The translations under genes and the position numbers were made by a program. Positions 35,834 through 51,062 of a DNA stretch of 64,000 bases are shown here, one piece after another. Position 1 is the first letter of the stretch, and each line of letters begins with the position of its first letter. The stretch comes from Gammaproteobacteria bacterium. GTDB lineage: Bacteria; Pseudomonadota; Gammaproteobacteria; Nevskiales; Nevskiaceae. Below the pieces are notes generated by a model. It did no database searches, was not told the origin of the DNA, and saw only the letters and a list, made by a program, of their open reading frames with translations. The stretch lies in contig JAPLSB010000016.1 in the NCBI GenBank assembly GCA_026398875.1, forward strand, positions 1-64,000, written 5' to 3'.

Positions 35834-36043
35834 GCGGCGCGGGATCGGCACCGGGTGGCGGTGGCTTGCCCGGGGTCTTCCGGCAAGCCGCAGGGATCAT
35901 CGGAAGCGATCGGCACGGTCGATCTGCGGCGGTGCGCTGCTGGGTCGGGATTCAGCATTCGATTATTTGCGATGACTGAAACGGTCTAAAGATCCGAATT
36001 TTTATTCAATACGATTGCGGCCGGTTCACCTGACATAACGCTC
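35834..36043. other. Intergenic region between the recombinase and mbnP-like genes
   Basis: 210 bp. The right half (about 35945-36025) is clearly AT-richer than the surroundings and should hold the promoter of the mbnP-like operon. I see no convincing -35/-10 pair, terminator or coding potential. Confidence 0.5.
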
Positions 36044-36829
36044 GTGTTCGTCCGTCTTCCACCGTCCAAGCTTGCCTTGCTGCTCGTCGCCCTGCTTGGG
36101 CTGTCGGCGTGTCGGGACGCCCGTTTGCCGGCCACCGAGCTCGATATCGAGATCAGCCATGTTGCCGGCGCTGCACCGTTGGTTCCGGGCAGCGAGATCA
36201 CGACGCCGGCCGGCGAGTCCCTGAAGGTCACCCGGCTTCAGTACTACCTGTCGAACCTGCGCCTGCTGCGCCCGGACGGCAGCGGGTGGACGCCGACGCA
36301 TGATCCGAAGACGGCCGATGGCTACTGGCTGGTCGATCTGGCCAAGCCGGACAGCCAGCATTTCGTGATCAACGGCGCGCCTGCCGGTGAGTACAGCGGC
36401 ATCGAACTGCTGATCGGCGTCGACTCGGCCCGCAACGGCGCCGGCGCCCAGACCGGCGCACTGGACCCGGCGCTCGGCATGTTCTGGACCTGGGCGACCG
36501 GCTACATCCATTTCAAGCTCGAAGGCCATTCGCCAGCCTCGACCGAGCGCGATCAGGCCGTCGCCCTGCATCTTGGCGGCGAAGGCGTGCAGCGCAGCGT
36601 GTTCCTGTCGTTTGCGCCGAAGCCGCTGCGCCTGGCGCCGGACCTGCGCTCGACGGTGCACCTGCATGCCGATCTCGATGGCCTGCTCGGGGGCGAGACG
36701 CCGCTATCGTTCGCCAAGACCGCGCTGGTGATGCAGGCAGCGGAAGGAAAGGCGGTGGCTGCGCGGCTGCCGGCGTTCCTCAAGCTCGATCATCTGCACC
36801 ACGAGCCACGGGCCACCAGCGGGCACTGA
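36044..36829 (+). CDS. mbnP: MbnP-family copper-binding periplasmic protein
   Basis: 261 aa from a GTG at 36044. Lipobox-like LLGLSAC ends the signal peptide, so the protein is probably a lipoprotein. The family hallmark is the motif MFWTWATGYIHFKLEG (residues 146-161), together with the early YYLSNLRLL strand. In characterised MbnP a tryptophan is oxidised to kynurenine by its partner MbnH, which is needed for copper binding; Trp148 and Trp150 are in the conserved segment here. The stop overlaps the mbnH start (TGATG), as expected for the pair. No methanobactin biosynthesis genes are visible. Confidence 0.88.
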   Translation: MFVRLPPSKLALLLVALLGLSACRDARLPATELDIEISHVAGAAPLVPGSEITTPAGESLKVTRLQYYLSNLRLLRPDGSGWTPTHDPKTADGYWLVDLAKPDSQHFVINGAPAGEYSGIELLIGVDSARNGAGAQTGALDPALGMFWTWATGYIHFKLEGHSPASTERDQAVALHLGGEGVQRSVFLSFAPKPLRLAPDLRSTVHLHADLDGLLGGETPLSFAKTALVMQAAEGKAVAARLPAFLKLDHLHHEPRATSGH

Positions 36830-37920
36830 TGTTCGACCGTCCGCCGGGCCGTCTTGCCAGCACCGGGCAGGTGTCGCTGCTGGCGGCCGTGATCCTGTTG
36901 CTGATCAGTGCGCTGGCGCTTGATGCGCGCGGCGGCATCGGCCTGATCGCTGACCAGCTGGCGCTGCTGCGGACGCCCGTGTTCAGGGTTCCGGCCGGCT
37001 GGCCGCAGCCGGTGTACGACTTTCGCGACAACCCGATCACCGCTGCCGGTTTCGCACTCGGCCGCGAACTGTTCTACGACCCGAAGCTGTCGCGCGACGG
37101 CAGCGTGTCCTGTGCCAGCTGTCACCAGCAGTTCGCGGCGTTCGCGCACTACGATCACGCGGTCAGCCACGGCATCGACAACCGCAACGGCACGCGCAAC
37201 GCGCCCGGCCTGTTCAACCTCGCCTGGCTGCCGCAGCTGATGTGGGACGGGTCGGCGCACAACCTCGAAGTGCAGCCGCTCGGGCCGGTCGCCAATCCGG
37301 TCGAGATGGACGCGAAGCTGCCGGCGCTGCTTGATCGCCTGCGCGCCGATCCGGCGTATCCGAAGCGCTTCGAGGCGGCATTCGGCTCGCCCGACATCGA
37401 CAGCCAGCGGATGCTCAAGGCGCTGGCCCAGTTCACCGGCACGATGATCTCCGCCGACAGCCGCTACGACCGCTACGTCGGCGGCGATGCATCCGCCCTG
37501 AATGCGACCGAGCAGGCCGGACTGGCCGCGTTCCGGGCCCGCTGCGCCAGCTGCCATGTCGAACCGCTGTTCAGCGATTTCAGCTATCGCGACAACGGTC
37601 TTGATGCCGCGCCGCGCGATGGCGGCCGGGCCACGGTCACCGCTCGCGCGGTCGATCGCGGCAGTTTCCGGGTGCCGAGCCTGCGCAACATCGGCCTGAC
37701 GCCGCCGTACATGCACGACGGCCGCTTCGACACGCTTGGCCAGGTGCTCGATCACTACCGCAGCGGTGTTGCCGGCAGTGACCACGTCGACCCGCTGCTG
37801 CGCGGTGGTCTGCCGATCAGCGCCGAGGAACGCGCTGCGCTGCTGGCCTTCCTGCCGACGCTCGACGATCCCGGCTTCACGCACGACCTGCGCTTCGCCG
37901 ATCCGGCGCGTCGCCGCTGA
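36829..37920 (+). CDS. mbnH: MbnH-family di-heme cytochrome c peroxidase/MauG-like protein
   Basis: 363 aa. A membrane/signal segment lies at about residues 15-35. Two CASCH heme-binding motifs occur at residues 95-99 and 239-243, spaced as in BCCP/MauG proteins. The C-terminal FRVPSLRNIGLTPPYMHDGRF motif is typical of this superfamily. MbnH forms a high-valent di-heme state that modifies MbnP. The gene overlaps both neighbours by one base (TGATG at each end), so mbnP, mbnH and the RND pump are a single translational unit. Confidence 0.9.
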   Translation: MFDRPPGRLASTGQVSLLAAVILLLISALALDARGGIGLIADQLALLRTPVFRVPAGWPQPVYDFRDNPITAAGFALGRELFYDPKLSRDGSVSCASCHQQFAAFAHYDHAVSHGIDNRNGTRNAPGLFNLAWLPQLMWDGSAHNLEVQPLGPVANPVEMDAKLPALLDRLRADPAYPKRFEAAFGSPDIDSQRMLKALAQFTGTMISADSRYDRYVGGDASALNATEQAGLAAFRARCASCHVEPLFSDFSYRDNGLDAAPRDGGRATVTARAVDRGSFRVPSLRNIGLTPPYMHDGRFDTLGQVLDHYRSGVAGSDHVDPLLRGGLPISAEERAALLAFLPTLDDPGFTHDLRFADPARRR

Positions 37921-40900
37921 TGTTCCGCGCGCTGCTCGAAGCAAGCCTGCGCCACCGGGTACTGGTGCTGGCACTTGCCGTGGCCCTGCTGGGCATCGGC
38001 CTGTTCGAGGCCGTACGGCTGCCGGTCGATGTGCTGCCGGATCTGACTCGGCCGACCGTCGCCGTGCAGATCGAAGCGCCCGTTTTCGCGGTTGTCGATG
38101 TCGAGACACAGGTTGCCTATCCGCTGGAAACCGCGCTCAGCGGGCTGCCGGGCATCAGCCGGCTGCGCTCGCTGTCGACGGCGGGCCTTGCGATCGTCTA
38201 TGCCGAGTTCGACTGGGATTCCGACCTGTACCGCAATCGGCAGCTGGTTGCCGAACGGCTGGAAGCTGCACGCGGCCAATGGCCGGAAGGGCTGGTGCCG
38301 CGGATCGGCCCGCCGACCTCGCTGATGGGCGAGATCCTGCTGGTGGCCTTGCAGGCCGACGGCAGCGACGCCGATCCGCAAACGCTGCGCAGTCATGCCG
38401 ACTGGACCCTGCGCCCGGCGCTGCTGGCCGTACCCGGCGTTGCCCAGGTGCTGGCGATCGGCGGCGAGATTCGCCAGTACGAAGTGCAGCCCGACCCGTC
38501 GCGGATGCGGCTGTTCGGCGTCACGCTCGACGAGCTGCATGCCGCGCTGCGCGGCTACGGCCAGAACCTTGGCGGCGGGCTGATCGAGTCGGGCGGACAG
38601 GAAGTCGCGGTGCGCGCCACCGGCAAGCCGTTCGCGTTCGACGAGCTGGCGCAGGTCGCGGTCACCAGGAAGGGGGCCGCCGTGGTTCGCGTCGGGCAGG
38701 TGGCGGATCTCGCCGTCGGCCATCGCTTTCCGCGCGGCAGCGCCGGCGCCAACGGGCACGCGGCGGTGATCCTCGCGATCCAGAAGCAGCCGGGCGTCGA
38801 CACGCTGGCACTGACCGAGGCGCTGGAAGCGAAGCTCGCTGCGCTCGATGGCGGCCTGCCGAAAGGCAGCAAGCGCCTGACCGTGTTCCGCCAGGCCGAC
38901 TTCATTCGCCATTCGGTGGGCAACGTGCTCGATGCGCTGCGCGATGGCGCGCTGATCGTCGCGATCATTCTGCTGGTGTTCCTGCTCAGCGGCCGCGCCA
39001 CCGTGATCGCGCTGACTGCGATTCCGTTGTCGGTGCTGGCCGCGCTGCTGACGCTGACCGCACTCGGCCTGTCGATCAACACGATGACCTTGGGCGGGCT
39101 GGCGATCGCGGTCGGCGAACTGGTCGACGACGCGGTGGTAGGCGTCGAGAACGTGGTGCGTCGGCTGCGCCAGCAGGCCGAAAAGCCGCTGACCGGCGCG
39201 GCGCTGATCGAGACGGTTGGCCGAGCAACGCTGGAAGTGCGCTCCGGCATCCTCTACGCGACCCTGTTGATCGTGCTGGTGTTCGTGCCGCTGTTCGCGC
39301 TCGGCGGTGTCGAGGGCCGGCTGTTCGCGCCGCTCGGCATTGCCTACATCGCAGCGATTGTCGGCAGCCTGGTGGTGGCGATCACGGTGACGCCGGTGCT
39401 GTGCTCGGGGCTGTTCGGGCAGGCTGCGCATCTGCCGGTCGAACCGCGCTGGCTGCTGGCCGTGAAGGCCGTCTATCTGCGGCTGCTGGCAAGGGTGCTG
39501 GACCGTCCGCGCCCGGTATTGATCGGCACTGCGCTGCTGCTGACGGCCAGTCTGGCGCTGGCCGCGTGGCTGCCGCGCAGCTTTCTGCCGCCGTTCAATG
39601 AGGGCACGCTGACGATCAACCTGATTGCCGAGCCCGGCATCGCGCTAGGCGAATCGGACCGGCTGGGCCGCATCGCGGAAAACCTGATTCTTGAAGTGCC
39701 GGAAGTGGCTGCCGTCGGCCGCCGTACTGGCCGGGCCGAAGCCGATGAGCACGCCGAAGGTGTGCACTATTCGGAGCTCGATGTCAGCTTGCGCGACGAC
39801 GGCAGCGGTCGGCCGCGCCGCATCGTCGCTGCCGATATCCGCGCCCGGCTGGCAGTGCTGCCGGCGGCGGTGTCGATCGGCCAGCCGATCTCGCATCGGC
39901 TCGACCACCTGCTGTCCGGCGTTCGCGCGCCGCTGGTGGTCAAGATCTTTGGACCGGATCTCGTCACCCTGCGCCGCCTGGCCGCCGAAGTACAGGCCAC
40001 ATTGGCTGCGCTCGATGGGCTGACCGATGTGCTGGTCGAGCCGCAGGTCGACACGCCGCAGTTCGAGATCAGCCTCGATGCCCGTGCTGCCGCCGATGCC
40101 GGCATTTCGCCGGCGCGGGCACAGTCGGCGATCAATGCGCTGACCGTGGGCAGCCGGCTGGCGCAGATCGTCGAAGGCGAGGCGCGGACCGAACTGCTGC
40201 TGCGCTTGCCGGAAGCGGCACGCAACGAGGCCGCGCTGGAAAACCTGCAGATCGACGGCCCGGCCGGACCGGCGCCGTTGAGCTGGATCGCCGAATTCCA
40301 CCAAGGTGCGGCGCCGAACCAGATCCTTCGCGAACACTTGCAGCGGCGTATTGCCGTCACTGCCTTTCCGGCCCAACACGGCTTTGACGCTGCCGCAGAT
40401 GCAGCAAAGGCGAAGCTTGCCGCGCTGAGCCTGCCACCGGGCTACCGGCTTGCCATCGAAGGGCAGGCGGCGTCGCGGGCGGCGGCAACGCAGCGCATCG
40501 CAGCGCTGGGCCTGCTGTCGCTGCTGCTGATGGCCGCCGTGCTCTATGGCCGGTATGGCTCGCTACGGCTGACCGCGATCATTCTCGGCAATGTGCCGCT
40601 GGCGCTGATCGGCGGCATGGCGGCGCTGGCGGTGACCGGTACACCGCTATCGGTTGCCAGCCTGATCGGTTTCGTGACACTTGCCGGAATCGCGGCCCGC
40701 AACGGCATTCTGAAGATCAGCCATTACCTGACGCTGATCCGCGATGGCGGCCAGCCGTTCGGCAGGGCGCTGATCCTGCGCGGCTCTGCCGAGCGACTGA
40801 CGCCGGTGCTGATGACCGCCCTGATCGCGGCACTGTCGCTGACGCCACTGCTGCTCGATGGCACAGCGCCGGGTCAGGAGATCCTTCATCCGGTGGCACT

Positions 40901-41021
40901 GGTGATTTTCGGCGGCCTGCTGACGTCGACGCTGCTCGACAGTTTCGTGACGCCGCTGCTGTTCCTGCTGCTGGGTTCGACATCCGCCGAACCGGCACGG
41001 CGAGACGACCTCCAGCCCTGA
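37920..41021 (+). CDS. Heavy-metal-efflux-type RND transporter (CusA/CzcA-like)
   Basis: 1033 aa with the 12-helix RND plan: TM1 near residues 12-30, first porter loop (about 40-335), TM2-6, second porter loop, TM8-12 ending at about 1020. The HME family segments are LPVDVLPDLTRPTV in the N-terminal region and the TM4 AVGELVDDAVVGVENV acidic motif for proton relay. HME pumps export Cu(I)/Ag or divalent cations across both membranes with an adaptor and an outer-membrane channel. Two adaptors are encoded 5 kb downstream; no channel gene is in the window. Metal specificity is not readable; copper is inferred from the MbnPH partners. Confidence 0.9.
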   Translation: MFRALLEASLRHRVLVLALAVALLGIGLFEAVRLPVDVLPDLTRPTVAVQIEAPVFAVVDVETQVAYPLETALSGLPGISRLRSLSTAGLAIVYAEFDWDSDLYRNRQLVAERLEAARGQWPEGLVPRIGPPTSLMGEILLVALQADGSDADPQTLRSHADWTLRPALLAVPGVAQVLAIGGEIRQYEVQPDPSRMRLFGVTLDELHAALRGYGQNLGGGLIESGGQEVAVRATGKPFAFDELAQVAVTRKGAAVVRVGQVADLAVGHRFPRGSAGANGHAAVILAIQKQPGVDTLALTEALEAKLAALDGGLPKGSKRLTVFRQADFIRHSVGNVLDALRDGALIVAIILLVFLLSGRATVIALTAIPLSVLAALLTLTALGLSINTMTLGGLAIAVGELVDDAVVGVENVVRRLRQQAEKPLTGAALIETVGRATLEVRSGILYATLLIVLVFVPLFALGGVEGRLFAPLGIAYIAAIVGSLVVAITVTPVLCSGLFGQAAHLPVEPRWLLAVKAVYLRLLARVLDRPRPVLIGTALLLTASLALAAWLPRSFLPPFNEGTLTINLIAEPGIALGESDRLGRIAENLILEVPEVAAVGRRTGRAEADEHAEGVHYSELDVSLRDDGSGRPRRIVAADIRARLAVLPAAVSIGQPISHRLDHLLSGVRAPLVVKIFGPDLVTLRRLAAEVQATLAALDGLTDVLVEPQVDTPQFEISLDARAAADAGISPARAQSAINALTVGSRLAQIVEGEARTELLLRLPEAARNEAALENLQIDGPAGPAPLSWIAEFHQGAAPNQILREHLQRRIAVTAFPAQHGFDAAADAAKAKLAALSLPPGYRLAIEGQAASRAAATQRIAALGLLSLLLMAAVLYGRYGSLRLTAIILGNVPLALIGGMAALAVTGTPLSVASLIGFVTLAGIAARNGILKISHYLTLIRDGGQPFGRALILRGSAERLTPVLMTALIAALSLTPLLLDGTAPGQEILHPVALVIFGGLLTSTLLDSFVTPLLFLLLGSTSAEPARRDDLQP

Positions 41022-41340
41022 TCGCTTATTACATTTTCTGCCAAGTTCGGATCGGAAACTGCTGAAGAAGCGGCCAAATAACCTGCAGTTAATTGGTTAT
41101 TTCAAATAAATTCAAAAAATACGAGGAAGAAGTCAAGCTTTACAACGAGAACGCCCGTTTAATTCGTGAAATGATCTATTCCGAATCTGCCGTCATGACG
41201 CTTCCAGAAACTAATATGCCTGCGCAAATGTGGTTACTTGCGATGGCTGGTTGAAGTCGATGGCTTTTTTTGGATTTCGGTTTCGGTAAGCCATAAAAAA
41301 ATATGTTTTCGGAGCTACACACGTCATGGGAGATGTTCAG
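41022..41340. other. AT-rich 319-bp intergenic region upstream of the large exported protein
   Basis: This stretch is strikingly AT-rich for the window, with runs such as TTCAAATAAATTC, a T7 run near 41265 and an A7 run near 41295. It contains no plausible gene; a 27-codon ORF starting at 41172 has no ribosome binding site. Most likely it carries the promoter and operator of the following highly translated gene. I cannot name a regulator site with confidence. Confidence 0.55.
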
Positions 41341-44139
41341 ATGAAGCAAGACAATCGACAGCGCAAGCTGAGCGGTGTCGCTTCGGCAATCGCGATGGCG
41401 GCAGCCGTCGTGGCAGCCGGTGCCCCCGTTCAGGCCGAAGCGCAGGCGACGCAAAAGCTGTTCGGTGGCGAGACCAGCAGCGCTGCGCCGGCTGCCGGCA
41501 ACGGCGTGCAGCAGCTGCTGCTGCCCCGCGATCAGACGCCGGCAGCGGGTGCCCCGGCGGCGATCAACAAGTACACCAACAAGGTCATTCCGAACGGCTC
41601 GGTCCTGCTGGTGTGGACGGCCGACGGCTGCTCGACCCCGGTCTGCAACCCGCAGACCGCGCAGGACTTCCTCGCCGTGGTCGATGTCGAGCCGAACTCG
41701 ACGACCTACGGCAACGTGATCTGGACTGCCGAGCTGCCGAAGGTGCTGGTGTCGAACGTGCTGCCGGTGGCGACGTCCGGTGCCGCGACGGATTCGCACA
41801 ACGATCCGCACCACATGCTCAGCTACACGTCCTACATCTCGGGCGGCGGCGATGGCCTGCGCGCGGGACGCAAGTACCAGTTCGCCGGCGGCGTGATCTC
41901 CAAGAACGTGTTCCGCTTCGACATCACCTCGGTGCGCAGCATCGGCAAGGCCGAGCTCGCCGTCTGCGGCACGCAGGTTCGCCGCTCGTCGCTGACCGAT
42001 GACTTCGTGGTGATGCCGTCGAAGACTGGCAATCACAAGATTCTCTACACGTACATGTCGAACTACGTGTACGGGCCGGGCGGCTCGGTGACGGAAATCG
42101 AGCCGGACCGTACCGCACCGACGCTGCTGAACATCTGTCTCGCTACCGCACCGGCCGTGCTGCCGCTGCTGGAGTCGGTGCAGGTCGGCGGTCTGATCGG
42201 CAACATTCCGGGGCTGATCACCGACGACGCCAACGTGCTCGGCCACGCCGGCATCACCGAGTACGGTGCCGCCGTGCGTGCCAACCAGCCGCGCAACCCG
42301 ACCAACTACACCAGCTACCCCGACCTGCGTCCGTCGCGCCGCTTCAATCAGGGTGCGTTCTATCTCGGCAACGATGACGCCGGCATTGAAGCGCTGCCGC
42401 ACGGCATGGGCCTGACCTATGACGGCAAGTACCTGGTGTCGTCGGATTACGCCGTGGCGGCGTCGATCGGCGCTGCAGCCATCAACGGCGCGCTGCGCGG
42501 CATCTGCAACCAGGGCGCTTTCAATGGCGGCACTGGCAACGGCAGCCCGCTCGGCGTCTGCGGTTCGACCTTCGGTTCGTCGGTGCGCGTGTTCGAGACC
42601 AGCTACGAGTACAACCGTGGCAAGACCCGTGACTCGCTGAAGGAATCGCGAATCTACGACTCGAACCCGTACATCCGTTCGGTGTCGGCAGTTCCGGATG
42701 GTCCGCGCGAGGAACTGGTGCTGTTCCATGAGGAAAATGAAGGCCTGATGCCGTTCGGCCTGCCGCACCAGTCTCACCACTGCAAGAACCAGAAGGGCTG
42801 GGTGGATCTGGGCGATCCGACCTACGACTCGGCGATCACGCCGGCCGGTCTCGCTGCCAACGCCGCGTCGGCCGTCAATGTCGACAGCTGCAAGCCGGGC
42901 GATCCGGACTACGTCCCGCATGACGGCGCTTTCACCGGTGCGATGTGCGGCGGCGTTCTGTACTACAGCCCGAACATCCGGCTGTCCGGCAACCAGACCA
43001 ACGTGTTTGGCGGCAAGGGTCCGTACTGGCGTGCGGTCTATGACGTCGGCCCGTGCCCGGGCGTGTCGTACTTCAGCATCTCCGACGATGACCGCTTCCT
43101 GATCCAGCCGATCTCCGGCATCGAAAGCCCGGCGTCGATCGACCCGGTTGGTGCGGTCGAGTTCGACCGCGACTACCCGCGTGAGCACAGCCGTCGCGTG
43201 CTGACCATCGACATCCGTCCGCTGCTGGCCAAGGGCCGTGCGGCCACGGCGTCGACGGCGATTGCCTGCGACTTCCCGCCGCCGGATCGCAACCGGGCGT
43301 CGAAGAGCTCGCTCGGTGCGCTGGCGCAGCGTGCGGACCTGTCGGGTGGCATCTCCGGGGCCTTCAACGTGCTGAAGCACAACAACGAAGCGGCCGATTG
43401 CCCGCGTGTTCGTGGTGCGGTGGGTCAGTTCGAAACCGGCCCGACCGGCGTCGGCCTGCAGACCACGCTGTCGTCGAACGTGTCGCAGCTCGGCACCGGC
43501 TACCTGCGTGCTGCGCAGGTCATCGAGGAAGTGTCCGTGCTGAACCCGGGCGGCATCCTGCTCGACAAGACCAAGACCGGTGGCGAGCCTTCGGGCAACA
43601 CCGGCGGCGGTCCGGGCAGCGGCAACCTGAACAGCCTGCAGAACCTGTACACGCACGGCGGTCCGCACTTCACGGTCATCGATCGCATCGGTTACCAGAA
43701 GACGCCGCGCAACGAAGGTGGCTACCTCGACCTGCGTCCGATCGACAACGGTTCGGGCATCGGCGTGCCGCGTGATGCGGTGGTGGGTGCTGCGCCGGCG
43801 ACCGGCGTGCAGCGCTACGCGTTCATCCAGTACTTCGTCGAGCTGAACCACGTCCCGGGTCCGGGCACCGGTTCGGACGGCGATCGCACGATCTGCCTTG
43901 CCAAGTACGACCGCCGCACCGGCGCCACCGTGCTCGACACGACCTTCACCGACGAGTTGCTCGGCACGCCGTGCATCGACTTCGACTCGGCGGCGCGTGA
44001 TGCCTGGCTGTGGCCGGGTGCGCGTGGCCGGAAGGGTTCGGCGAAGCCGCACGCTGCCGCCTTCGAGCGTGATGGCGCTGCGCTGTTCGGCCCGGGGTAC
44101 TACCCGGCCAAGCCGCTGGATGTCGACGGCACGCGCTAA
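41341..44139 (+). CDS. Large exported His-rich protein of unrecognised family
   Basis: 932 aa. The ATG at 41341 follows GGAG with 8-nt spacing; an ATG at 41326 is also in frame. The signal peptide is about residues 1-33 (ending VQAEA). The rest has no membrane helices and is rich in Gly, Asp and aromatic residues with many loop-strand transitions, as in a beta-propeller. Histidine clusters that look like metal sites occur at 151-159 (DSHNDPHHM), 463-482 (HEENEG to HQSHHCK) and 771-777 (THGGPHF). Cysteines are scattered. Codon use is clean. I do not recognise the family; a vague likeness to SBP56/methanethiol-oxidase propellers (His-rich, copper-linked) is not strong enough to name. Neighbours are MbnPH, an HME pump and a periplasmic foldase. 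Confidence 0.85.
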   Translation: MKQDNRQRKLSGVASAIAMAAAVVAAGAPVQAEAQATQKLFGGETSSAAPAAGNGVQQLLLPRDQTPAAGAPAAINKYTNKVIPNGSVLLVWTADGCSTPVCNPQTAQDFLAVVDVEPNSTTYGNVIWTAELPKVLVSNVLPVATSGAATDSHNDPHHMLSYTSYISGGGDGLRAGRKYQFAGGVISKNVFRFDITSVRSIGKAELAVCGTQVRRSSLTDDFVVMPSKTGNHKILYTYMSNYVYGPGGSVTEIEPDRTAPTLLNICLATAPAVLPLLESVQVGGLIGNIPGLITDDANVLGHAGITEYGAAVRANQPRNPTNYTSYPDLRPSRRFNQGAFYLGNDDAGIEALPHGMGLTYDGKYLVSSDYAVAASIGAAAINGALRGICNQGAFNGGTGNGSPLGVCGSTFGSSVRVFETSYEYNRGKTRDSLKESRIYDSNPYIRSVSAVPDGPREELVLFHEENEGLMPFGLPHQSHHCKNQKGWVDLGDPTYDSAITPAGLAANAASAVNVDSCKPGDPDYVPHDGAFTGAMCGGVLYYSPNIRLSGNQTNVFGGKGPYWRAVYDVGPCPGVSYFSISDDDRFLIQPISGIESPASIDPVGAVEFDRDYPREHSRRVLTIDIRPLLAKGRAATASTAIACDFPPPDRNRASKSSLGALAQRADLSGGISGAFNVLKHNNEAADCPRVRGAVGQFETGPTGVGLQTTLSSNVSQLGTGYLRAAQVIEEVSVLNPGGILLDKTKTGGEPSGNTGGGPGSGNLNSLQNLYTHGGPHFTVIDRIGYQKTPRNEGGYLDLRPIDNGSGIGVPRDAVVGAAPATGVQRYAFIQYFVELNHVPGPGTGSDGDRTICLAKYDRRTGATVLDTTFTDELLGTPCIDFDSAARDAWLWPGARGRKGSAKPHAAAFERDGAALFGPGYYPAKPLDVDGTR

Positions 44140-44155
44140 GCGTTGTTGATGGATG

Positions 44156-44181
44156 CCTTCCCCGGCGCATGCCGGGGAAGG
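44156..44181 (+). terminator. First hairpin after the large exported protein gene
   Basis: CCTTCCCCGGC (44156-44166) pairs perfectly with GCCGGGGAAGG (44171-44181), 11 bp with a 4-nt loop, 17 nt after the stop. No T tract follows, so a 3'-end stabilising stem is as likely as termination. Confidence 0.6.
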
Positions 44182-44185
44182 CCAC

Positions 44186-44215
44186 CGGCAGTCGCGGCCT
44201 CCGTCGCGACTGCCG
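44186..44215 (+). terminator. Second hairpin in the same gap
   Basis: CGGCAGTCGCG (44186-44196) pairs perfectly with CGCGACTGCCG (44205-44215), 11 bp with an 8-nt loop, followed by TTTGCTT. It lies only 4 nt after the first hairpin. Confidence 0.55.
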
Positions 44216-44273
44216 TTTGCTTGGGTGCAGTGTTCGGCGGTCGTCGCACGCCCCCGTTGCTGTCGCCCGACGC

Positions 44274-44301
44274 CTCCCCCGTGCGCGGGGGAGATTTTTT
44301 T
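44274..44301 (+). terminator. Intrinsic terminator just upstream of the foldase gene
   Basis: CTCCCCC (44274-44280) pairs with GGGGGAG (44287-44293), followed by A and seven T residues (44295-44301). This is the canonical Rho-independent form. It ends only 27 nt before the next ATG, so downstream genes are expressed by read-through or from another promoter. Confidence 0.75.
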
Positions 44302-44328
44302 ATTGATCGTCACCGGAGCACCACCTCG

Positions 44329-45243
44329 ATGCTGCAGTTCCCGTTTTCCCGCTTCAAGCAGGCTCTGGCCATGGTCGGCTTCCTCGCCGTCACCAGCACC
44401 GTCCATGCGCAGGCCGCTTCGGCAACGCCGGCAGAGGCCGGGCTGGCCGTCGACGTATCCGTCAATGGCAAGCCGATCACGCGCAACCACATCACCCTGA
44501 TGGGTGCCAATTTCACGCAGGACCGTCAGGCGCCGGGCCCGGAAGCGCAGGCCGCTGCCCGCGCCGAGCTGATCACCCAGGAAGTGCTGGCCCAGGCCGC
44601 GCTGAAGGAAGGCCTCGACAAGAAGCCGGTGGTCGCTGACCAGATCGCGTTCCAGCAGCGGGCGATCCTGTCGCGCGCCTATCTGGAGGATTACTTCATC
44701 AGGAATCCGGTCACCGACGACACGCTGAAGACCGCGTACGACTTTTCCGTCGCCGGCGGCAAGCTCACCGAATACAAGGTTCGCCACATCCTGGTGAACG
44801 ATCTGCCGAAGGCCGAGGAACTGGCCGGCCGGCTGGCCAAGGGCGAGGACTTCATCGCGCTGGCCAAGGTCGAAACGCTCGATCCGGGCGGTCAGAACAA
44901 CGGCGGCGATCTCGGCTGGTTCCGCCCGGACATCTTCGTTGACGCCAACTTCGCGCGCGCCGTGCAGGCGCTGAAGAAAGGCGAGGTCAGCAAGCAGCCG
45001 GTGCGCAGCCGTTTCGGCTGGCACCTGATCAAGCTCGAGGACGGCCCGCGTCCGGTGACCAATGCCGCGAAGTGGGACCAGCTCGACGAGCCGGTCAAGC
45101 AGGCGCTGCGCCAGCGTTCCGCACAGGCGCGCCTGGAAGCGCTGACCGAAGGCCTGACCGCCAAGGCCAAGCTGGCCGGGCCAGGTCTTGCCGCCAACAG
45201 CACGTCTGCCGCCGCTGGCAGCAAGAGCAAGCGCGCGCCGTGA
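44329..45243 (+). CDS. Periplasmic parvulin-type peptidyl-prolyl isomerase (SurA/PpiC-like)
   Basis: 304 aa from the ATG at 44329 (GGAG at 44314-44317). The signal peptide ends at about AQAAS. An N-terminal helical chaperone segment (about residues 35-140) is followed by one rotamase domain: YKVRHILV, GEDFIALAK, GGDLGWF and RFGWHLIKLED, all typical of parvulins. The C-terminal tail is Lys/Ala/Ser rich. It probably assists folding of exported proteins; placed after the 932-aa protein gene, a dedicated foldase role is inferred. Its stop overlaps an ATG of the next frame. Confidence 0.88.
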   Translation: MLQFPFSRFKQALAMVGFLAVTSTVHAQAASATPAEAGLAVDVSVNGKPITRNHITLMGANFTQDRQAPGPEAQAAARAELITQEVLAQAALKEGLDKKPVVADQIAFQQRAILSRAYLEDYFIRNPVTDDTLKTAYDFSVAGGKLTEYKVRHILVNDLPKAEELAGRLAKGEDFIALAKVETLDPGGQNNGGDLGWFRPDIFVDANFARAVQALKKGEVSKQPVRSRFGWHLIKLEDGPRPVTNAAKWDQLDEPVKQALRQRSAQARLEALTEGLTAKAKLAGPGLAANSTSAAAGSKSKRAP

Positions 45244-45278
45244 TGCGCCGCGATCCATCCTCGCTGGAGATTTCGCAG

Positions 45279-46016
45279 ATGACTCGTCATTCCACGCACA
45301 CCACGGCGCTGGCGCTGTCGGCCGCGCTGCTGCTGTCGGCTTGCGCGCAGCCGGCGGCGAAGCCCGAGGCCGCCGCCGCGACGCCGGTGGCCGACGCCGG
45401 CAGCAACGATCCTTCGAAGCAGGTGCCGCCGACCTTGTCGACGCTTGATCCGTCGAAGCTGTCGGACGAGGACCGCATCGGTTTGACCACGCACTTCGCA
45501 CGCATCGGCGATCTGGCTGCGCTGAAGCGGATGCTCGATGCCGGGGTCGACGTCAATGCGCACGACACGCTGGACCAGACGCCGCTGATCGCGGCGGTCA
45601 GCCAGAATTCGGTCGAAGCCGTCAGCGAAGTACTGCGGCGCGGCGCAAAGCTCGACATCGTCGACAAGGCCGGCTGGTCGCCGCTGCATTTCGCGACCTA
45701 CTTCAGCGACCAGACCGCCGTGATGAAGCTGCTGCTCGACGCCGGTGCCAACGTCAATGCCCAGAACGATCGCGGCATCACGTCGCTGTACTTCGCCGCC
45801 GCCACCGGCCACGAAGCGCAGGTGAAGCTGCTGCTGGCGCGGGGAGCCGATTTCAAGATCGCGTCGAAGACCGGCTGGACGCCGCTGCGGATCGCCAAGG
45901 TCAAGGGCATCGAGCCGATTGCCAAGCTGCTTGACCCGGAAGGCAAGGGCGATGGCAGCCCGGAGCCGGCGCCGCTGTCGTCCAGCGCGGCCCAGCCGGC
46001 TGCCGGCGGTTCCTGA
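45279..46016 (+). CDS. Ankyrin-repeat lipoprotein
   Basis: 245 aa from the ATG at 45279, with GGAG at 45266-45269; an ATG at 45243 overlaps the previous stop but is followed by no signal peptide. Lipobox LLLSAC marks a lipoprotein (Cys about residue 22). After an alanine-rich linker, about four to five ankyrin repeats run from residues 65 to 215, with motifs such as GWSPLHFA, GANVNAQNDRG and GWTPLRIAK. Periplasmic ankyrin proteins are known partners of catalases and other redox proteins; here the partner is unknown, perhaps the large exported protein. Confidence 0.85.
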   Translation: MTRHSTHTTALALSAALLLSACAQPAAKPEAAAATPVADAGSNDPSKQVPPTLSTLDPSKLSDEDRIGLTTHFARIGDLAALKRMLDAGVDVNAHDTLDQTPLIAAVSQNSVEAVSEVLRRGAKLDIVDKAGWSPLHFATYFSDQTAVMKLLLDAGANVNAQNDRGITSLYFAAATGHEAQVKLLLARGADFKIASKTGWTPLRIAKVKGIEPIAKLLDPEGKGDGSPEPAPLSSSAAQPAAGGS

Positions 46017-46029
46017 GCGATCCCGGCGC

Positions 46030-46902
46030 ATGCAACGTCGCGGCTGCCTGCTCGCGGTGCTGCTGCTGGCTTCGGCCAGCAGCAGTGGCCATGAGGGCCA
46101 TGCGCATCGCGACGCGGCACCGCTGTCGGCGCCAGCGTCGGCAACCGTTCCGCTGGCGGCGAGCGCGCCGGTGGCTGCAGCCGCTGTCGGCGAGGCACTG
46201 AACCGCCGCCCGGCGCGGGTCATTGCCGATGTCCGCAAATCGGTGCTTGTCGCCGCGCCGGAGGCCGGTGTGCTTGAAGCGCCGCCGGGCGGCTTCAAAC
46301 GCGCAGGGCAGAAGGTCGTGGCCGGGGAACTGCTGGGTCGGCTGCGACCGGCGACGCCGCAGCTGCAGCGTCGCGACATCGAAGCCAAGCTTGTCGAGGC
46401 GCGTCGCGATGCCGATATCGGAGCCCTGCAGATCGACCGCTACGGCATCACCGAAGCGCAGCGCTTCGACGTCAGCCTGCCGACCCAGACCTTGCAGATC
46501 CTGACTGACTACACGGCTGCCAAGACACGCCGCGAGCAGCTGCAAACCAGCCTTGATGGCACGGTCGAGATTCGTGCGCCGCGCAGCGGTCGCGTGCTGC
46601 GCGCCGATGCCGATGCCAGCCGGCAGTTCGAGCCCGGCGAAGCGGTGTTCGCGATTCAGTCGGACGGCGACGCGCTGGTCATCGAGCTGAAGGACACCGA
46701 CGAAGGCTTCGTCGCGCCGCTGTCCGCGCACGCCGTGCTGAGCGATGGCCGCGAGCTGCCGCTGACGCGCATCGGCAGCGGCTTCGATGCCAGCCAGCGC
46801 GCCCATGTCGCGCTGTACGCACCGGTCGGTCCCGCTGATGGCCTGATCATCAATCAGCGGCTGCGCCTGCAGTGGCCGCAGACAGAGGCCGTCAGCCGAT
46901 GA
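46030..46902 (+). CDS. Periplasmic adaptor subunit (HlyD/CusB-like) of a metal RND pump, first copy
   Basis: 290 aa. After a signal peptide (about residues 1-19) the mature chain begins GHEGHAHRD, a His-rich start like that of CzcB-type adaptors. The lipoyl/barrel-sandwich halves are seen at APEAGVLEAPPGGFKRAGQKVVAGELLGRL and VEIRAPRSGRVLRADADASRQFEPGEAVFAIQ, with a short helical hairpin between. It lacks a long C-terminal membrane-proximal domain. The stop overlaps the second adaptor start (ATGA). It should connect the HME pump encoded at 37920 to an outer-membrane channel. Confidence 0.82.
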   Translation: MQRRGCLLAVLLLASASSSGHEGHAHRDAAPLSAPASATVPLAASAPVAAAAVGEALNRRPARVIADVRKSVLVAAPEAGVLEAPPGGFKRAGQKVVAGELLGRLRPATPQLQRRDIEAKLVEARRDADIGALQIDRYGITEAQRFDVSLPTQTLQILTDYTAAKTRREQLQTSLDGTVEIRAPRSGRVLRADADASRQFEPGEAVFAIQSDGDALVIELKDTDEGFVAPLSAHAVLSDGRELPLTRIGSGFDASQRAHVALYAPVGPADGLIINQRLRLQWPQTEAVSR

Positions 46903-48026
46903 CGCCGATCCGTGGGCGGGTCATCACCGCCTTGCTGGCGGCCAGCCTCGGCGCGGCTGCGCACGAAGGCGAAATCCATCGTGATCCGGCTGCCGATAGC
47001 CCTGCAGCGGCTGGCGATTTCAGCCTGACGCGGCCGGTCCGGCTGGCTGACGGCAGCCTGCACGTCAGCACGGCGATGCAACAGCAGCTGAAGATTCGCA
47101 GCGACGCCTGGTCGGCGCGCACCCAGCCGCTGGAGGTCGCGCGGCTGGCGGCCGACGTGCAGGCGCAGCCGGATGCCGCGCTGGCCGTGGTCGCGATCGA
47201 ACGCGGCCGCCTCGAAGCGCCGGACCGTGGCTGGCTGCTGCCCGGCCAGCAGGTCGCGGCTGGACAGCTGCTGGCCTGGCTGCGGCCGCAGCTGAGCCAG
47301 CAGGAACGCGCCGACCGCCGCGCCCGTCTGGCCAAGCTGGAAGCGGAACTGGCGATCGTCGACGTCAATGTCGAGCGCCAGCAGTTGCAGAGCGCCGTCA
47401 ACAGCGAGGCCGGCGGTGTCGCCAGCGGCAATATCTGGGTCGAGAAATATCTGGCCGAACGCACGGCCATGCGCCGCAACCGCGATCTGCTGGCGCAGAG
47501 CCTCGACGATCGCATCGCGCTGCGCGCGCCGCATGGCGGCCGCGTGCTGAACATCGCGGCCGCACCGGGTGCCGTGGTCGAAGCCGGCAGCGCCGTGCTG
47601 CGGCTGTCCGATAGCCGCGCGCTGCAGCTGGTAGCCGTGCATCAGCAGGCCGGACTCGGTGCGCGGATCGCCGCTGCACGCCTGCTCGATGGCAGCCTGC
47701 TGGTGCCGCGCGGTGAAGAGCCGCTGGCCGACGGCAGCGGTTGGCGTCTGCGCGTCGACGTGCCCGCCGGGCATTCGCCGCTGGTCGCCGGGCAAGTGGT
47801 GCGCTTCGAGATCTCGTTGCGTGCGCCGGCCGGCACCGTCGCGATTCCGGCCAGCGCCTGCGTGAGCCGTGCCGGTGCCGCCGAAGTCTGGTTGCAGCGC
47901 GGCGAGGAGCGCTTCGAAGTGCGGCAGATCGCTTCCTGCCGGGGCAATCGTGCCGCGACGCCGTTGCTCGCCGATGGCGACCGGATCGTCACGCAGGGCG
48001 CTGCACTGCTGAGTCGCTATCGCTGA
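46899..48026 (+). CDS. Periplasmic adaptor subunit (HlyD/CusB-like) of a metal RND pump, second copy
   Basis: 375 aa from the ATG at 46899. The signal peptide ends LGAAA, leaving mature HEGEIHRDPA. Barrel-sandwich halves are at APDRGWLLPGQQVAAGQLLAWLRP and IALRAPHGGRVLNIAAAPGAVVEAGSAVLRL, joined by a helical hairpin (about residues 137-205). A beta-barrel and membrane-proximal domain follow, with IPASACVSRAG and TQGAALL typical of this family. Two adaptors in tandem suggest a hetero-oligomeric ring, as in a few RND systems. The 3' end overlaps the convergent gene at 48017. Confidence 0.87.
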   Translation: MTPIRGRVITALLAASLGAAAHEGEIHRDPAADSPAAAGDFSLTRPVRLADGSLHVSTAMQQQLKIRSDAWSARTQPLEVARLAADVQAQPDAALAVVAIERGRLEAPDRGWLLPGQQVAAGQLLAWLRPQLSQQERADRRARLAKLEAELAIVDVNVERQQLQSAVNSEAGGVASGNIWVEKYLAERTAMRRNRDLLAQSLDDRIALRAPHGGRVLNIAAAPGAVVEAGSAVLRLSDSRALQLVAVHQQAGLGARIAAARLLDGSLLVPRGEEPLADGSGWRLRVDVPAGHSPLVAGQVVRFEISLRAPAGTVAIPASACVSRAGAAEVWLQRGEERFEVRQIASCRGNRAATPLLADGDRIVTQGAALLSRYR

Positions 48027-48460
48027 GCAGCCGGTTTCCACCGATGCCGTTCTCGGCTGACCGAGCCATCGTGCAGTGACGGTACTGCGTTGCCGAGGCC
48101 GGGTTCGGACTTCGCGGCCGGCTTCGACTTCAGCTTTTTCTTCGCTTTCGATTTCGGCTGCGGATCCGGCTGCGCAGGACCGCCATCAGCCGGCCGGCAG
48201 CGCCGTCCGGAGTAGATCGCCAGTGCGGCAAGCTGCCCGGCTTCCCGATGCACGCCGACCAGCTTGGCATCGCAGCCCTGGATGCAGATCGACGCAGGTG
48301 CGGTGGTGCGATTGAGCACGACGGATGCCGCCGGCTGATGAATCCTGACCTCGCAGCGCGTCGGCTTGAGCGCGGGCTTGTGCGCGCGCTTGCTGGCGGC
48401 AAGTGCAGTGGTTGCGGTCATCGTCAGGATGATCGCCAGGATCGGCACGCGAGTCGGCAT
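48017..48460 (-). CDS. Small exported basic protein, unknown
   Basis: 147 aa if started at the ATG at 48460, which gives a signal peptide (MPTRVPILAIILTMTATTALA); an ATG at 48520 would add 20 residues. The mature protein is short, with four cysteines near the middle (about residues 33-85) and a C-terminal tail rich in Lys/Ala/Pro. I do not recognise a family. It overlaps the second adaptor gene by 10 bp tail to tail and is preceded by the TonB-receptor hairpin. Confidence 0.5.
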   Translation of the reverse strand: MPTRVPILAIILTMTATTALAASKRAHKPALKPTRCEVRIHQPAASVVLNRTTAPASICIQGCDAKLVGVHREAGQLAALAIYSGRRCRPADGGPAQPDPQPKSKAKKKLKSKPAAKSEPGLGNAVPSLHDGSVSRERHRWKPAAQR

Positions 48461-48562
48461 CGGGACTTGGGTTGGCAGGCTTCGGGGCGCGAAGTGCGAC
48501 CGGTGCGCATTGGAACCCATCGTCCAGAGGCCTGCAGACGCGGCGGCGTGAACGGCAGCGGC

Positions 48563-48589
48563 GATCCGCCCGGCGCCGCCGGACGGATC
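48563..48589 (-). terminator. Hairpin after the TonB-dependent receptor gene
   Basis: GATCCG (48563-48568) pairs with CGGATC (48584-48589), and an inner CCGGC (48570-48574) pairs with GCCGG (48578-48582), giving an 11-bp stem with one mismatch and a 3-nt loop. It lies 17 nt beyond the receptor stop on the minus strand and has no T tract. Confidence 0.5.
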
Positions 48590-48605
48590 TACCTTGCTTG
48601 CGATC

Positions 48606-51062
48606 TCAGCGGATGTCGTAGCTCATCGTCACGCCGACGATGCGCGGCGGGCCGGCGTAGGCGAACGCGGTATCGCCGAGATTGACCACCGATGCGCGGT
48701 AGAACTCGTTGGTCAGGTTGCGGGCGAACGCGGTCACCTGCCAGTGCTGTCCCGGTGCCGAGAAGCCGAGCCGCAGATCGACGATCTGGTGCTCGTTGAG
48801 CGCAAAGAACGGGTCGCCTTCCAGCGTGGAGTTGGTCTCGCCGGTGTGGCTCCAGGTGACGCCCGGCGACACGTTCAGGGAATCGGCGATCGTGAACGTG
48901 TAGTTGGCCAGCACGCTGGCCTGCAGCCGGGGCGCGTAGTTGAACGGCCGGCCAGCGAAGTCGAAGTCGTCGCCGGTCGCGGTCAGGCCGACGAACTCGA
49001 TGACCTTGGTGCGCACATACGAGCCGAGCGCGGTGATGTTCAGGTTGCGGATCGGCAGCCAGGTCGCGGTGATCTCGCCGCCCTGCACGCGGGATTTCGG
49101 CACGTTCTGCAGATACTGCAGGTTGCCGAAGATCGGGTCCGAGAAGTAGGTCAGCAGCTGCTTGTCCTTGTACTCGTACTGGAACGCAGCGCTGTTGATC
49201 TGCACGCGATTGCCGAACAGGCCGACCTTGGCGCCGACTTCGTAGGCATCGAGCCGCTCCTGCACCACCGGCGCCAGACTGGCCTGGTCGACCGAAAACA
49301 CGGTCGGGAAGCCGCCGGACTTGTAGCCGCGCGTGTACGAGCCGTAGAACAGCAGGTCGTCGGTCGGCGTCCAGCTGAGCACGCTGCGATAGGCGAGGTT
49401 GTCCTGCTTCAGCTGGCCGGCGACCAGCCCGGTGTTGCCGTCGGCATCGACGCTGCCGCACTCGCCGGGCCGGACCACCGAATTGCCGCCGCGGGCGATG
49501 CTGGCAAAGGTAAACAGGGCCGACAGCGGCAGGATCGAATCGTTGTCGACGTTCTCGTAGGTGCAGCCCTGGTAGCTTTGGGTTTCGCGCGAATAGCGCA
49601 CGCCGGCGGTCAGCTTCAGCGTGTCGACGAATTCCCAGCTGGCATCGGCGAACACGCCGTTGGAACGCGTCTGGCCGTCACCGCGCGCCGAGCCACGGTT
49701 CAGCACCAGCGGCGTGAACAGCGGCGGCGTCGATCCGAAGGTCGGGAAGTTCAGGCTGTTGTCGGAGGCGCGTCCTTCGCTGACGATGCCGTATTCGTCG
49801 TAATTGGCATTGACGCCGACGATGAAGTCGGCGTGCTCGCCGAGATTGCCTTCCAGACGAATCTCGCCCGAGGTCGAGCGGATGTTGCCGGTCAGGAACT
49901 GATCGATGTTCTCCAGATCGGTGCCGCCCTGCGGCAGCGCCGAGCCGTCGCTGCGCACCTGCGAAAACGCGAACAGGCCGACCAGCCGGTAGTCGTCGCT
50001 GATCTGCCACTGCGGCTTCAGCGTGGCGTTCCAGAAGTTGTCGTTCAAGCCGAAGCCGCCATCCGGATTCCAGTCGGCCACCTTGCTGTTGTTGTTGTTG
50101 GCGATGAACGGATAGTCGCGCAGCCGTGGCGAAATCGCGGCATTGCCCGGCAGCAGCGGGTTCTGCGGCCGGATGTCGACGGCAAACGGCGCCTGCGGCT
50201 CGCTCTTGTCGAGCCAGCCGGATACCGCCAGCCGCACGCTGACATCCTCGATCACGTCCCAGTCGACGATGCCGCGCGCGGCCCGCTTGGAAACCTTGCC
50301 GAGGCGGTCGTCCGGGCGGGTGTTGCTGCGCTGCCAGCCGATGTTGGATTCGCTCAAGGAACCGGCCAGCCGCACGCGCACCGAATCCCCCAGCGGGCCG
50401 CTGATGAAGCCTTCGGTGTCGAAGCGGCCATAGCTGCCGCCGGTCGCTTCGAGGCCGGCAGCGAACTGGCGCGTCGGCTTGTTGGCGATGTAGTTGATGG
50501 TGCCGCCGGTCGAGTTGCGGCCATACAGCGTGCCCTGCGGACCCTTCAGCACTTCGACGCGGCGCAGGTCGAGGTTCGGGCCCTTGGTCATCACCGGGTA
50601 GGGCAGTGCGACTTCATCGAGATAGACGCCGACCGTCGACTGATTGGCGAAGCTGGAATCGGCGAAGCCGACGCCGCGCAGCGTATAGATCGGCGTGTTG
50701 AAGCCGGAATCGGCATAGGTGAAGCCGGCGACCAGCTTCGACAGTTCGCGGGTATCGCGCACGCCGATGGCTTTCAGGTCGTCACCGCCATAGGCGCTGA
50801 TCGAGGTCGGAATGTCGTCGATGTAGCCGTCGCGCCGGGTGGCGGTGACGACGATTTCCTCGATGCGAGTCACGGCCGGCCCGGCGGCCGGCGCCGCGGC
50901 GGCTGTGGCGTCGGCGCTGGCCGGCTTTGCTTCGGGGGCAGCAGCAGCGGCTGTGCCTTCATCGATCGCGGCGGCGGCGTCCTGGGCGAGCACGGATGCG
51001 CTCCAGGGCGAGACGAGGCCACCAATCGTGGCGGCGGAAACAAGGGTACGGAGCGTCTTCAT
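48606..51062 (-). CDS. TonB-dependent outer-membrane receptor
   Basis: 818 aa. The signal peptide ends SVLAQ. After an alanine-rich linker the TonB-box/plug begins at EEIVVTATRR and continues with the plug motifs DDIPTSISAYGGDDLKAIGV and VLKGPQGTLYGRNSTGGTINYI. The barrel follows with alternating aromatic strands, ending VTMSYDIR (an unusual basic end; most end in Phe). It belongs to the iron-complex/sugar-type receptor group, but substrate is unknown. It lies 15 bp downstream of cysB in what looks like a mop-amidotransferase-cysB-receptor operon. Confidence 0.9.
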   Translation of the reverse strand: MKTLRTLVSAATIGGLVSPWSASVLAQDAAAAIDEGTAAAAAPEAKPASADATAAAAPAAGPAVTRIEEIVVTATRRDGYIDDIPTSISAYGGDDLKAIGVRDTRELSKLVAGFTYADSGFNTPIYTLRGVGFADSSFANQSTVGVYLDEVALPYPVMTKGPNLDLRRVEVLKGPQGTLYGRNSTGGTINYIANKPTRQFAAGLEATGGSYGRFDTEGFISGPLGDSVRVRLAGSLSESNIGWQRSNTRPDDRLGKVSKRAARGIVDWDVIEDVSVRLAVSGWLDKSEPQAPFAVDIRPQNPLLPGNAAISPRLRDYPFIANNNNSKVADWNPDGGFGLNDNFWNATLKPQWQISDDYRLVGLFAFSQVRSDGSALPQGGTDLENIDQFLTGNIRSTSGEIRLEGNLGEHADFIVGVNANYDEYGIVSEGRASDNSLNFPTFGSTPPLFTPLVLNRGSARGDGQTRSNGVFADASWEFVDTLKLTAGVRYSRETQSYQGCTYENVDNDSILPLSALFTFASIARGGNSVVRPGECGSVDADGNTGLVAGQLKQDNLAYRSVLSWTPTDDLLFYGSYTRGYKSGGFPTVFSVDQASLAPVVQERLDAYEVGAKVGLFGNRVQINSAAFQYEYKDKQLLTYFSDPIFGNLQYLQNVPKSRVQGGEITATWLPIRNLNITALGSYVRTKVIEFVGLTATGDDFDFAGRPFNYAPRLQASVLANYTFTIADSLNVSPGVTWSHTGETNSTLEGDPFFALNEHQIVDLRLGFSAPGQHWQVTAFARNLTNEFYRASVVNLGDTAFAYAGPPRIVGVTMSYDIR

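Follow-up and report, generated by a model that had tools for sequence, protein, structure and literature searches.

The 64,000-nucleotide stretch of DNA analysed here (hereafter the window; positions 1 to 64,000 of the forward strand of contig JAPLSB010000016.1, assembly GCA_026398875.1, a Gammaproteobacteria bacterium of the Nevskiaceae) carries eight consecutive genes on the plus strand at 36044–48026. They encode, in order, MbnP, MbnH, a heavy-metal efflux (HME)-type RND pump, a protein of 932 residues termed P937, a parvulin, an ankyrin lipoprotein and two adaptors. Reading of the open reading frames (ORFs) combined with Pfam and NCBIfam searches confirmed this order and placement, which had been proposed in a first-pass annotation made from the letters alone. 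That annotation regarded the family of P937 as unknown. We found a distant family match to SBP56 (PF05694), the family of the copper-dependent methanethiol oxidase (MtoX/SELENBP1), and sequence comparison indicates that the P937 family is a sister clade of SBP56. P937, a distant and enlarged relative of copper-dependent methanethiol oxidase, probably represents a new type of copper enzyme in the periplasm. The explanation we favour, with reserve, is that it is a periplasmic copper beta-propeller enzyme of the SBP56 superfamily supplied by MbnP and MbnH (MbnPH).

Our placement of P937 in a sister clade within the SBP56 superfamily relies on a profile–profile score, a genome search, a bridging protein and a tree. 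All 15 rows of alignment A1, which comprises the window P937 and 14 homologues, matched Pfam SBP56 at E up to 1 (best 3.3e-4), below the threshold. SBP56 is the sole Pfam match of the window P937, at 16.4 bits against a gathering threshold of 34 and over the segment starting DFLAVVDVEPNSTTYGNVI, as well as of both Streptomyces homologues scanned and of the f85 homologues L075 (E 0.026) and L076. One other A1 row has a better match to fn3 (best 2.8e-6), which probably lies in the C-terminal extension of that row, and a Pfam scan of the P937 homologues L044, L045 and L077 reported no matches. When compared by hhalign with eight SBP56 proteins, A1 scored 80.3% and the wider alignment A4 96.9% (E 1.9e-10); raising the number of SBP56 rows to 19 brought the score to 99.1% (E 9.4e-19) over 277–318 columns. 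In the controls, six other families of the locus scored at most 0.5%, reversed SBP56 0.1% and 20 column shuffles at most 1.3%. Sequence searches of PDB yielded one chance match (E 0.16) for P937 alone, and the entry 2ece at E 0.12 with profile A1 and at E 0.0033 with A4.

Run against 369 genomes of the class, A4 found matches in 16, of which three belong to the P937 family (G000, G139 and G263), 12 are SBP56-type and one (G071) is unassigned. Ten of the 12 SBP56-type proteins were scanned with Pfam and all ten lie above the SBP56 cut-off; L104 and L106 were judged SBP56-type by eye. The match in G071 (L095) is C-terminal only, in a frame of 102 residues, and was excluded from the residue map. 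A sample of 398 genomes of the phylum gave nine matches, the window genome and eight weak ones; the two of these eight that were checked lie at SBP56 genes. At E 0.001 the SBP56 model finds nothing in the window genome itself, which is 95% complete. Among the ten scanned proteins is the bridge L096, with a Pfam SBP56 match of 5.3e-10 and hhalign scores of 98.8% to SBP56 and, over its length, 98.7% to the P937 family. This protein of 411 residues (L096:1417-2649, genome G090) has a lipobox-like start, comes from a genome of 0.9 Mb and appears intermediate between the two groups. A tree of 33 rows separates the P937 family (support 98/95) from SBP56 (100/100), each as a clade of its own, with the caveat that long branches meet there and that L096, itself on a long branch, is placed unsurely.

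The metal site was mapped in Ruegeria pomeroyi MtoX numbering onto 13 rows of the P937 family, the window included. In the accessible text of PMC5739008 and PMC10936201, H88, H89, H141 and H424 are proposed as the copper ligands of MtoX, and W223/W386 as the Trp pair of its tryptophan tryptophylquinone (TTQ). The accessible parts of PMC5739008 and PMC10362175 also describe the copper dependence of SBP56, and according to the latter the activity of human SELENBP1 requires six residues, namely HH, HxxH, an Asp and a Glu. Given the motif order, this Asp and Glu would be equivalent to MtoX D205 and E269. In our map, H88 and H89 correspond to H157 and H158 of P937, and E269 to E458, in 13/13 rows. 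The match of E269 to E458 depends on the direct alignment, because the route via L096 pairs the Glu position otherwise (E234 with S447, E458 facing L096 E242). D205 corresponds to G355, and the preceding Tyr204 to H354, which is His in 13/13 rows. A His was expected in P937 at the PHT position of MtoX, where the alignment gives Asp. The proposed TTQ pair is gone in 13/13 rows, W223 being replaced by Ala/Pro (373) and W386, in a pairing of lower confidence, by Thr/Ser/Phe (843). We did not class P937 as a methanethiol oxidase because two defining features of MtoX, the copper His set and the TTQ Trp pair, fail. Its sequence nevertheless makes it very likely that P937 functions as SBP56 proteins with a copper site do.

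A closer kinship in function, in which P937 would be an MtoX-like methanethiol oxidase and MbnH would act as its MauG and build TTQ in P937 itself, is quite improbable. It draws on the homology of P937 to SBP56, on the adjoining MauG-family gene and on the presence of SCO1 and mauG in mtoX operons (PMC5739008, accessible text; R. pomeroyi annotation). However, the absence of both TTQ Trp residues, the replacement of H141 by Asp and the availability of MbnP as a substrate of MbnH all argue against it.

The first-pass annotation called P937 His-rich; with 17 His (1.8%) it is not His-rich by composition, yet all 17 are invariant in the 15 rows of A1, which has 440 invariant columns and in which 12 of the 14 Cys of P937 are also kept. 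We propose a putative model, in which P937 would belong to the SBP56/methanethiol-oxidase superfamily as a metalloenzyme that is exported through Sec and rich in disulfides. It would most likely fold as a seven-bladed beta-propeller, the central channel of which could bind copper via H157, H158, E458 and H904, with H354 (and D220) taking the places of the third MtoX His and of residues near it. MbnH would oxidise a Trp of the MbnP lipoprotein, yielding a high-affinity copper site, and MbnP may store copper or pass it to P937. The HME pump and the two adaptors would keep the periplasmic metal in range, the parvulin may assist folding of P937, and the ankyrin lipoprotein may tether the assembly. 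The chemistry of P937 would be that of an oxidase, for which a thiol or other organosulfur compound is the first candidate substrate. A more specific version, which we put forward only tentatively and would not bet on, is that P937 founds a separate clade of beta-propeller oxidases that use copper, have a rearranged ligand pair (His to Asp, Tyr to His) and lack TTQ, and whose copper would be loaded by kynurenine-bearing MbnP made by MbnH; P937 would then be the dedicated client of the orphan MbnPH pairs that occur outside methanobactin loci.

A genome scan with P937 recovered 18 related loci, mostly from Nevskia, Solimonas, Hydrocarboniphaga, Stenotrophobium and Nevskiaceae by record titles, a group that we call Nevskiaceae. 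Eleven of the 18, every locus long enough to show it, carry the complete set of eight in unchanged order and orientation; the remaining seven (L023, L030, L032, L033, L034, L036 and L038) end at contig edges and keep the rest of the order without contradiction. Of 61 genomes (that of the window plus 60 relatives), 20 contain P937 and 26 contain MbnP. Every P937 genome carries MbnP (20/20), on the same contig in 15 and on different contigs of fragmented assemblies in five, giving a Fisher p of 3.7e-11 for co-occurrence, with no correction for kinship. Identity to the window is 67–93% for P937, 55–89% for the pump, 37–78% for MbnP and 29–70% for adaptor 1, and the parvulin is 49–83% identical in best segments across related loci. 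P937 retains 335 invariant columns in a 12-sequence set that includes the broken copy of L028. The first-pass idea of a single conserved locus is thus borne out by the constant order in the complete loci, and P937 has the highest identity of the parts compared.

If the locus were instead a generic metal cluster in which P937 is merely co-located, with no functional tie, the distinct promoter-like region and the possible terminators that P937 has around it, as well as the members of the wider family that lack MbnP, would find a ready explanation. Such a chance arrangement is nonetheless the least credible alternative and highly improbable, given that the order is kept in 11/11 complete loci from several genera and that MbnP accompanies P937 in 20/20 genomes, whereas the flanking parE, integrase and cysB genes are seen only in L021 and L025. 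CysB (51081-52052) had been considered as a link to sulfur and was rejected on that ground. In Solimonas aquatica, the P937 gene (L028:9773-12556) splits into two frames of 711 and 213 residues, which reflects either a break or an assembly error. Two P937 loci, L033 and L038, lie on contigs titled Verrucomicrobia and Rhodospirillales (MOSS_genome_mining) with 66–71% identity to the window, and these contigs are perhaps mis-binned. A plasmid search with the window P937 as query returned no matches.

The putative supply module consists of MbnP and MbnH. MbnP matches PF20243 at 146.7 bits (cut-off 27) and the NCBIfam equivalog TIGR04052 at 42 bits, below its cut-off of 140, and is single-copy in the window genome. 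Its predicted model (predicted local distance difference test score, pLDDT, 85.4; predicted template modelling score, pTM, 0.83) best matches 7l6g, the MbnP of M. trichosporium, in PDB (E 1.9e-10, Z 16.2, root-mean-square deviation 3.4, 212 aligned residues). The next structural match has Z 6.3, and other folds at Z 4–6 were taken as unrelated. A sequence search of PDB with MbnP gave no match, and the relation to 7l6g is through the fold only. W148 and W150 of the WxW motif, H176, H206, H250 and H252 are invariant in 12/12 rows, the window included. From sequence and model, MbnP is predicted to be a kynurenine-type copper-site protein with a modified Trp. MbnH has TIGR04039 as its best NCBIfam model (222.8 bits, below the cut-off of 362.85), keeps two CxxCH motifs and matches 1iqc, 6e1c and MauG in PDB. 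Its Y310 is invariant in 12/12 rows and faces a Tyr in the alignment with 6e1c, which we take to be the MbnH structure; the axial ligand of MauG is Tyr294. Four related loci encode a small His-rich protein (AHEGH/AHGGH-type, 189–231 residues) between MbnH and the pump (L024:4138-4764, L027:5870-6490, L029:6001-6570 and L035:5655-6350), with an N-terminal His-rich stretch, a C-terminal hydrophobic segment and no match over the Pfam cut-off. By eye, a C-terminal extension of MbnH in L026 and L037 resembles these proteins.

Beyond the Nevskiaceae, the P937 family occurs in other surroundings. In family f85, P937-family matches are present in 7/20 genomes, and the order P937 homologue, CusB-like adaptor with HMBD, CusA-like RND permease holds in 5/5 loci with flanking sequence (L044, L045, L074, L076 and L077); the contigs of L073 and L075 end at the P937 homologue. 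These permeases contain CusA-like segments absent from the window permease, LTMMET or LTMIET in 5/5 and GAMVDAAIVMIEN in 4/5. Genes matching PEP-CTERM adjoin the homologue in two f85 genomes (L076:8255-9067 and L077:11770-12402), the match lying slightly over the Pfam cut-off in one and slightly under it in the other. Six plasmid records contain Streptomyces homologues, and two of these loci were read. Each encodes an SBP56-like protein of 566–583 residues paired with a second hypothetical protein (L078:9500-12426 and L079:7296-10309) and adjoins sulfur-assimilation genes, with cysD in both and adenylyl-sulfate kinase, PAPS reductase, a sulfonate transporter and nitrite/sulfite reductase in L078. 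The two recurring contexts, copper export and sulfur, fit a copper enzyme acting on sulfur compounds, although neither proves it. Because f85 homologues sit with CusBA-like pumps without MbnP, and the Streptomyces loci with sulfur genes, MbnPH looks like a lineage-specific copper-supply module rather than a universal neighbour. Homologues without MbnPH/RND neighbours, which the first-pass annotation named as evidence against its reading, thus turn up in part: in f85 the pump stands without MbnP, and the two Streptomyces loci read have neither among their annotated genes, whereas the complete Nevskiaceae loci keep all eight genes. MbnPH does not define the family.

The same contexts bear on a reading of the locus as a periplasmic metal detoxification system, in which P937 would serve as a metal sink or sensor without catalytic activity, and MbnP and the pump would remove copper or another metal. 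The HME pump, the HEG(H/E)-type N-termini of the adaptors, the CusBA-like pumps beside P937 relatives and the many invariant His and Cys of P937 would all suit such a role. On the other side, the SBP56 proteins with tested function in the cited papers are enzymes, as far as their accessible text goes, and there the residues that P937 keeps from the MtoX site are those tied to activity; moreover, the two Streptomyces loci adjoin sulfur-assimilation genes, not resistance genes. We consider detoxification unlikely, yet the most serious competitor of the copper-enzyme reading.

P937 is preceded by an AT-rich gap. Its G+C content (GC) of 0.41, against mostly 0.64–0.70 in the surrounding window, bears out the first-pass observation of such a gap, and GC is low (0.39–0.56) upstream of P937 in the window and 11/11 complete loci. 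A motif resembling AAANNNTCTA occurs 162–183 nt before the P937 start, at a near-constant distance, in 10 of 12 loci (the window and 11 others), with a pattern picked after viewing the alignment and without comparison to shuffles. It is the sole feature shared in an alignment of ten leaders and may be a promoter element followed by a long leader. A promoter scan of 35850-48600 found a single sigma-70-type site, located outside the gap. Terminator-like sites in the region number seven against 6.5 expected from shuffles, and the case for a hairpin terminator after P937 is therefore weak. Rfam at its gathering threshold gave no matches within the window. TGATG overlaps join MbnP to MbnH and MbnH to the RND gene, which makes the translational coupling claimed in the first-pass annotation plausible. 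The starts tabulated below for the last four genes are the likely ones inside the listed ORFs. The lipobox of the ankyrin lipoprotein was recognised by eye, and its Cys22 is invariant in 12/12 rows including the window. Downstream, TonB-receptor matches recur in seven related loci, at 55–94% identity in L021, L024, L025, L032 and L035 and at 26–29% in L027 and L031; the receptor is possibly an optional outer-membrane partner of the locus.

Features of the P937 locus and its surroundings in window coordinates
Feature	Position	Strand	Evidence and remarks
MbnP, 261 aa, lipobox Cys23	36044..36829	+	PF20243 E 1e-42; predicted kynurenine-type copper-binding protein
MbnH/MauG-family di-heme enzyme, 363 aa, two CxxCH	36829..37920	+	CCP_MauG 2.5e-54
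HME-type RND pump, 1033 aa	37920..41021	+	ACR_tran 1e-223; TIGR00914 690.6 bits
AT-rich region upstream of P937, probable promoter	41022..41340	+	GC 0.41; motif AAATGATCTA at 41169-41178
P937, putatively exported SBP56-superfamily protein, 932 aa	41341..44139	+	alternative start 41326 = 937 aa; site residues H157/H158, H354, E458, H904
Two hairpins with T-rich tails, possible terminator between P937 and parvulin	44186-44215 and 44274-44293	+	
Parvulin-type peptidyl-prolyl isomerase, putatively exported, 304 aa	44329..45243	+	Rotamase 6.3e-17
Ankyrin-repeat lipoprotein, 245 aa	45279..46016	+	Ank_2 3e-25
Adaptor 1, 290 aa, N-terminal HEGHAH	46030..46902	+	RND_mfp 1e-5, below cut-off; position conserved
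Adaptor 2, 375 aa	46899..48026	+	RND_mfp 9.4e-18, below cut-off; HlyD_3 1.1e-5
TonB-dependent receptor, optional recurrent downstream neighbour	48606..51062	-	family match

Several observations weigh against P937 as a copper enzyme of the SBP56 superfamily supplied by MbnPH. As regards homology, the narrower profiles retrieved the P937 family only and no SBP56 protein (A1 in 3/369 class genomes, A2 in 1/398 phylum genomes). Single slices compared with SBP56 score 0.7% for the C-terminal part and 3.0% for the PHG/PHT part, so that the alignment is less sure beyond blade 1. AlphaFold2 run on the 15 rows of A1 gave P937 a mean pLDDT of 26.6, too low to read a fold. As regards the site, H141, the third copper His of MtoX, corresponds to D220 (Asp in 13/13 rows), by which one of the four proposed copper His is lost, and H424 pairs with H904 (13/13) only at relaxed settings or via L096 H398. 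As regards supply, MbnP was found in 0/7 f85 genomes with the P937 family, in a search where the controls were also silent and with a model that matched 26/61 genomes elsewhere; neither a pump nor MbnPH is among the annotated genes of the two Streptomyces loci, for which the plasmid gene table is incomplete. The window pump, which has CusA as its top PDB match and scores just below the TIGR00914 cut-off of 701.45, carries Asn, Tyr and His where CusA has M573, M623 and M672, which we take to be its methionine triad. Finally, with the AT-rich gap and motif upstream and the hairpins downstream, P937 may be transcribed separately from its neighbours. The first-pass proposal of a new copper enzyme at the centre of the locus stays plausible through its copper link by SBP56/MtoX homology; the window pump, lacking the triad, is at most a candidate copper pump.

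To our knowledge, the role of MbnP/MbnH pairs outside methanobactin loci is still open. A fixed genetic partner in a copper-enzyme superfamily offers a direct hypothesis for the function of these orphan pairs. In addition, SBP56 is joined by a large sister clade whose metal site is altered, and the locus links two families in each of which a MauG-type di-heme enzyme accompanies a copper protein. The accessible text of PMC3621798 treated the role of such pairs as open in 2013, under the heading 'mysterious partners', and our search, limited to openly licensed literature, found no paper title describing this locus.

Among known systems, MtoX (PF05694; Hyphomicrobium sp. VS and Ruegeria pomeroyi) shares with P937 a signal peptide, homology over about 280–320 columns, the HH and Glu of the metal site (and, with less certainty, its C-terminal His), and a MauG-family gene in the locus. 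It differs in size (about 436 residues versus 932), in its third copper His (Asp in P937), in Tyr204 (His in P937) and in its TTQ Trp; the window locus has MbnP where MtoX has SCO1, with pump, parvulin and ankyrin genes added. The MbnP/MbnH pair of M. trichosporium (PF20243, TIGR04039) is reminiscent of the window pair in its two overlapping genes, MbnP fold and WxW motif, whereas the window proteins fall below the NCBIfam equivalog cut-offs and have a pump and an SBP56-like protein as partners. Similarly, MopE/CorA with SACCP/CorB of methanotrophs combines a di-heme peroxidase-family gene with a kynurenine-copper-site protein (PMC3912023, accessible text); however, the MbnP sequence is not markedly similar (PMC3621798, accessible text), and the accessible parts of both papers mention no SBP56-like partner. 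With CusCFBA and other HME-RND systems the locus shares an HME-type RND permease and adaptors, and in f85 the P937 homologue adjoins a CusA-like permease and a CusB-like adaptor that bears an HMBD. The window system is set apart from CusCFBA by a pump without the Met triad, two adaptors that match HlyD/RND_mfp weakly, and eight genes among which there is no outer-membrane channel gene.

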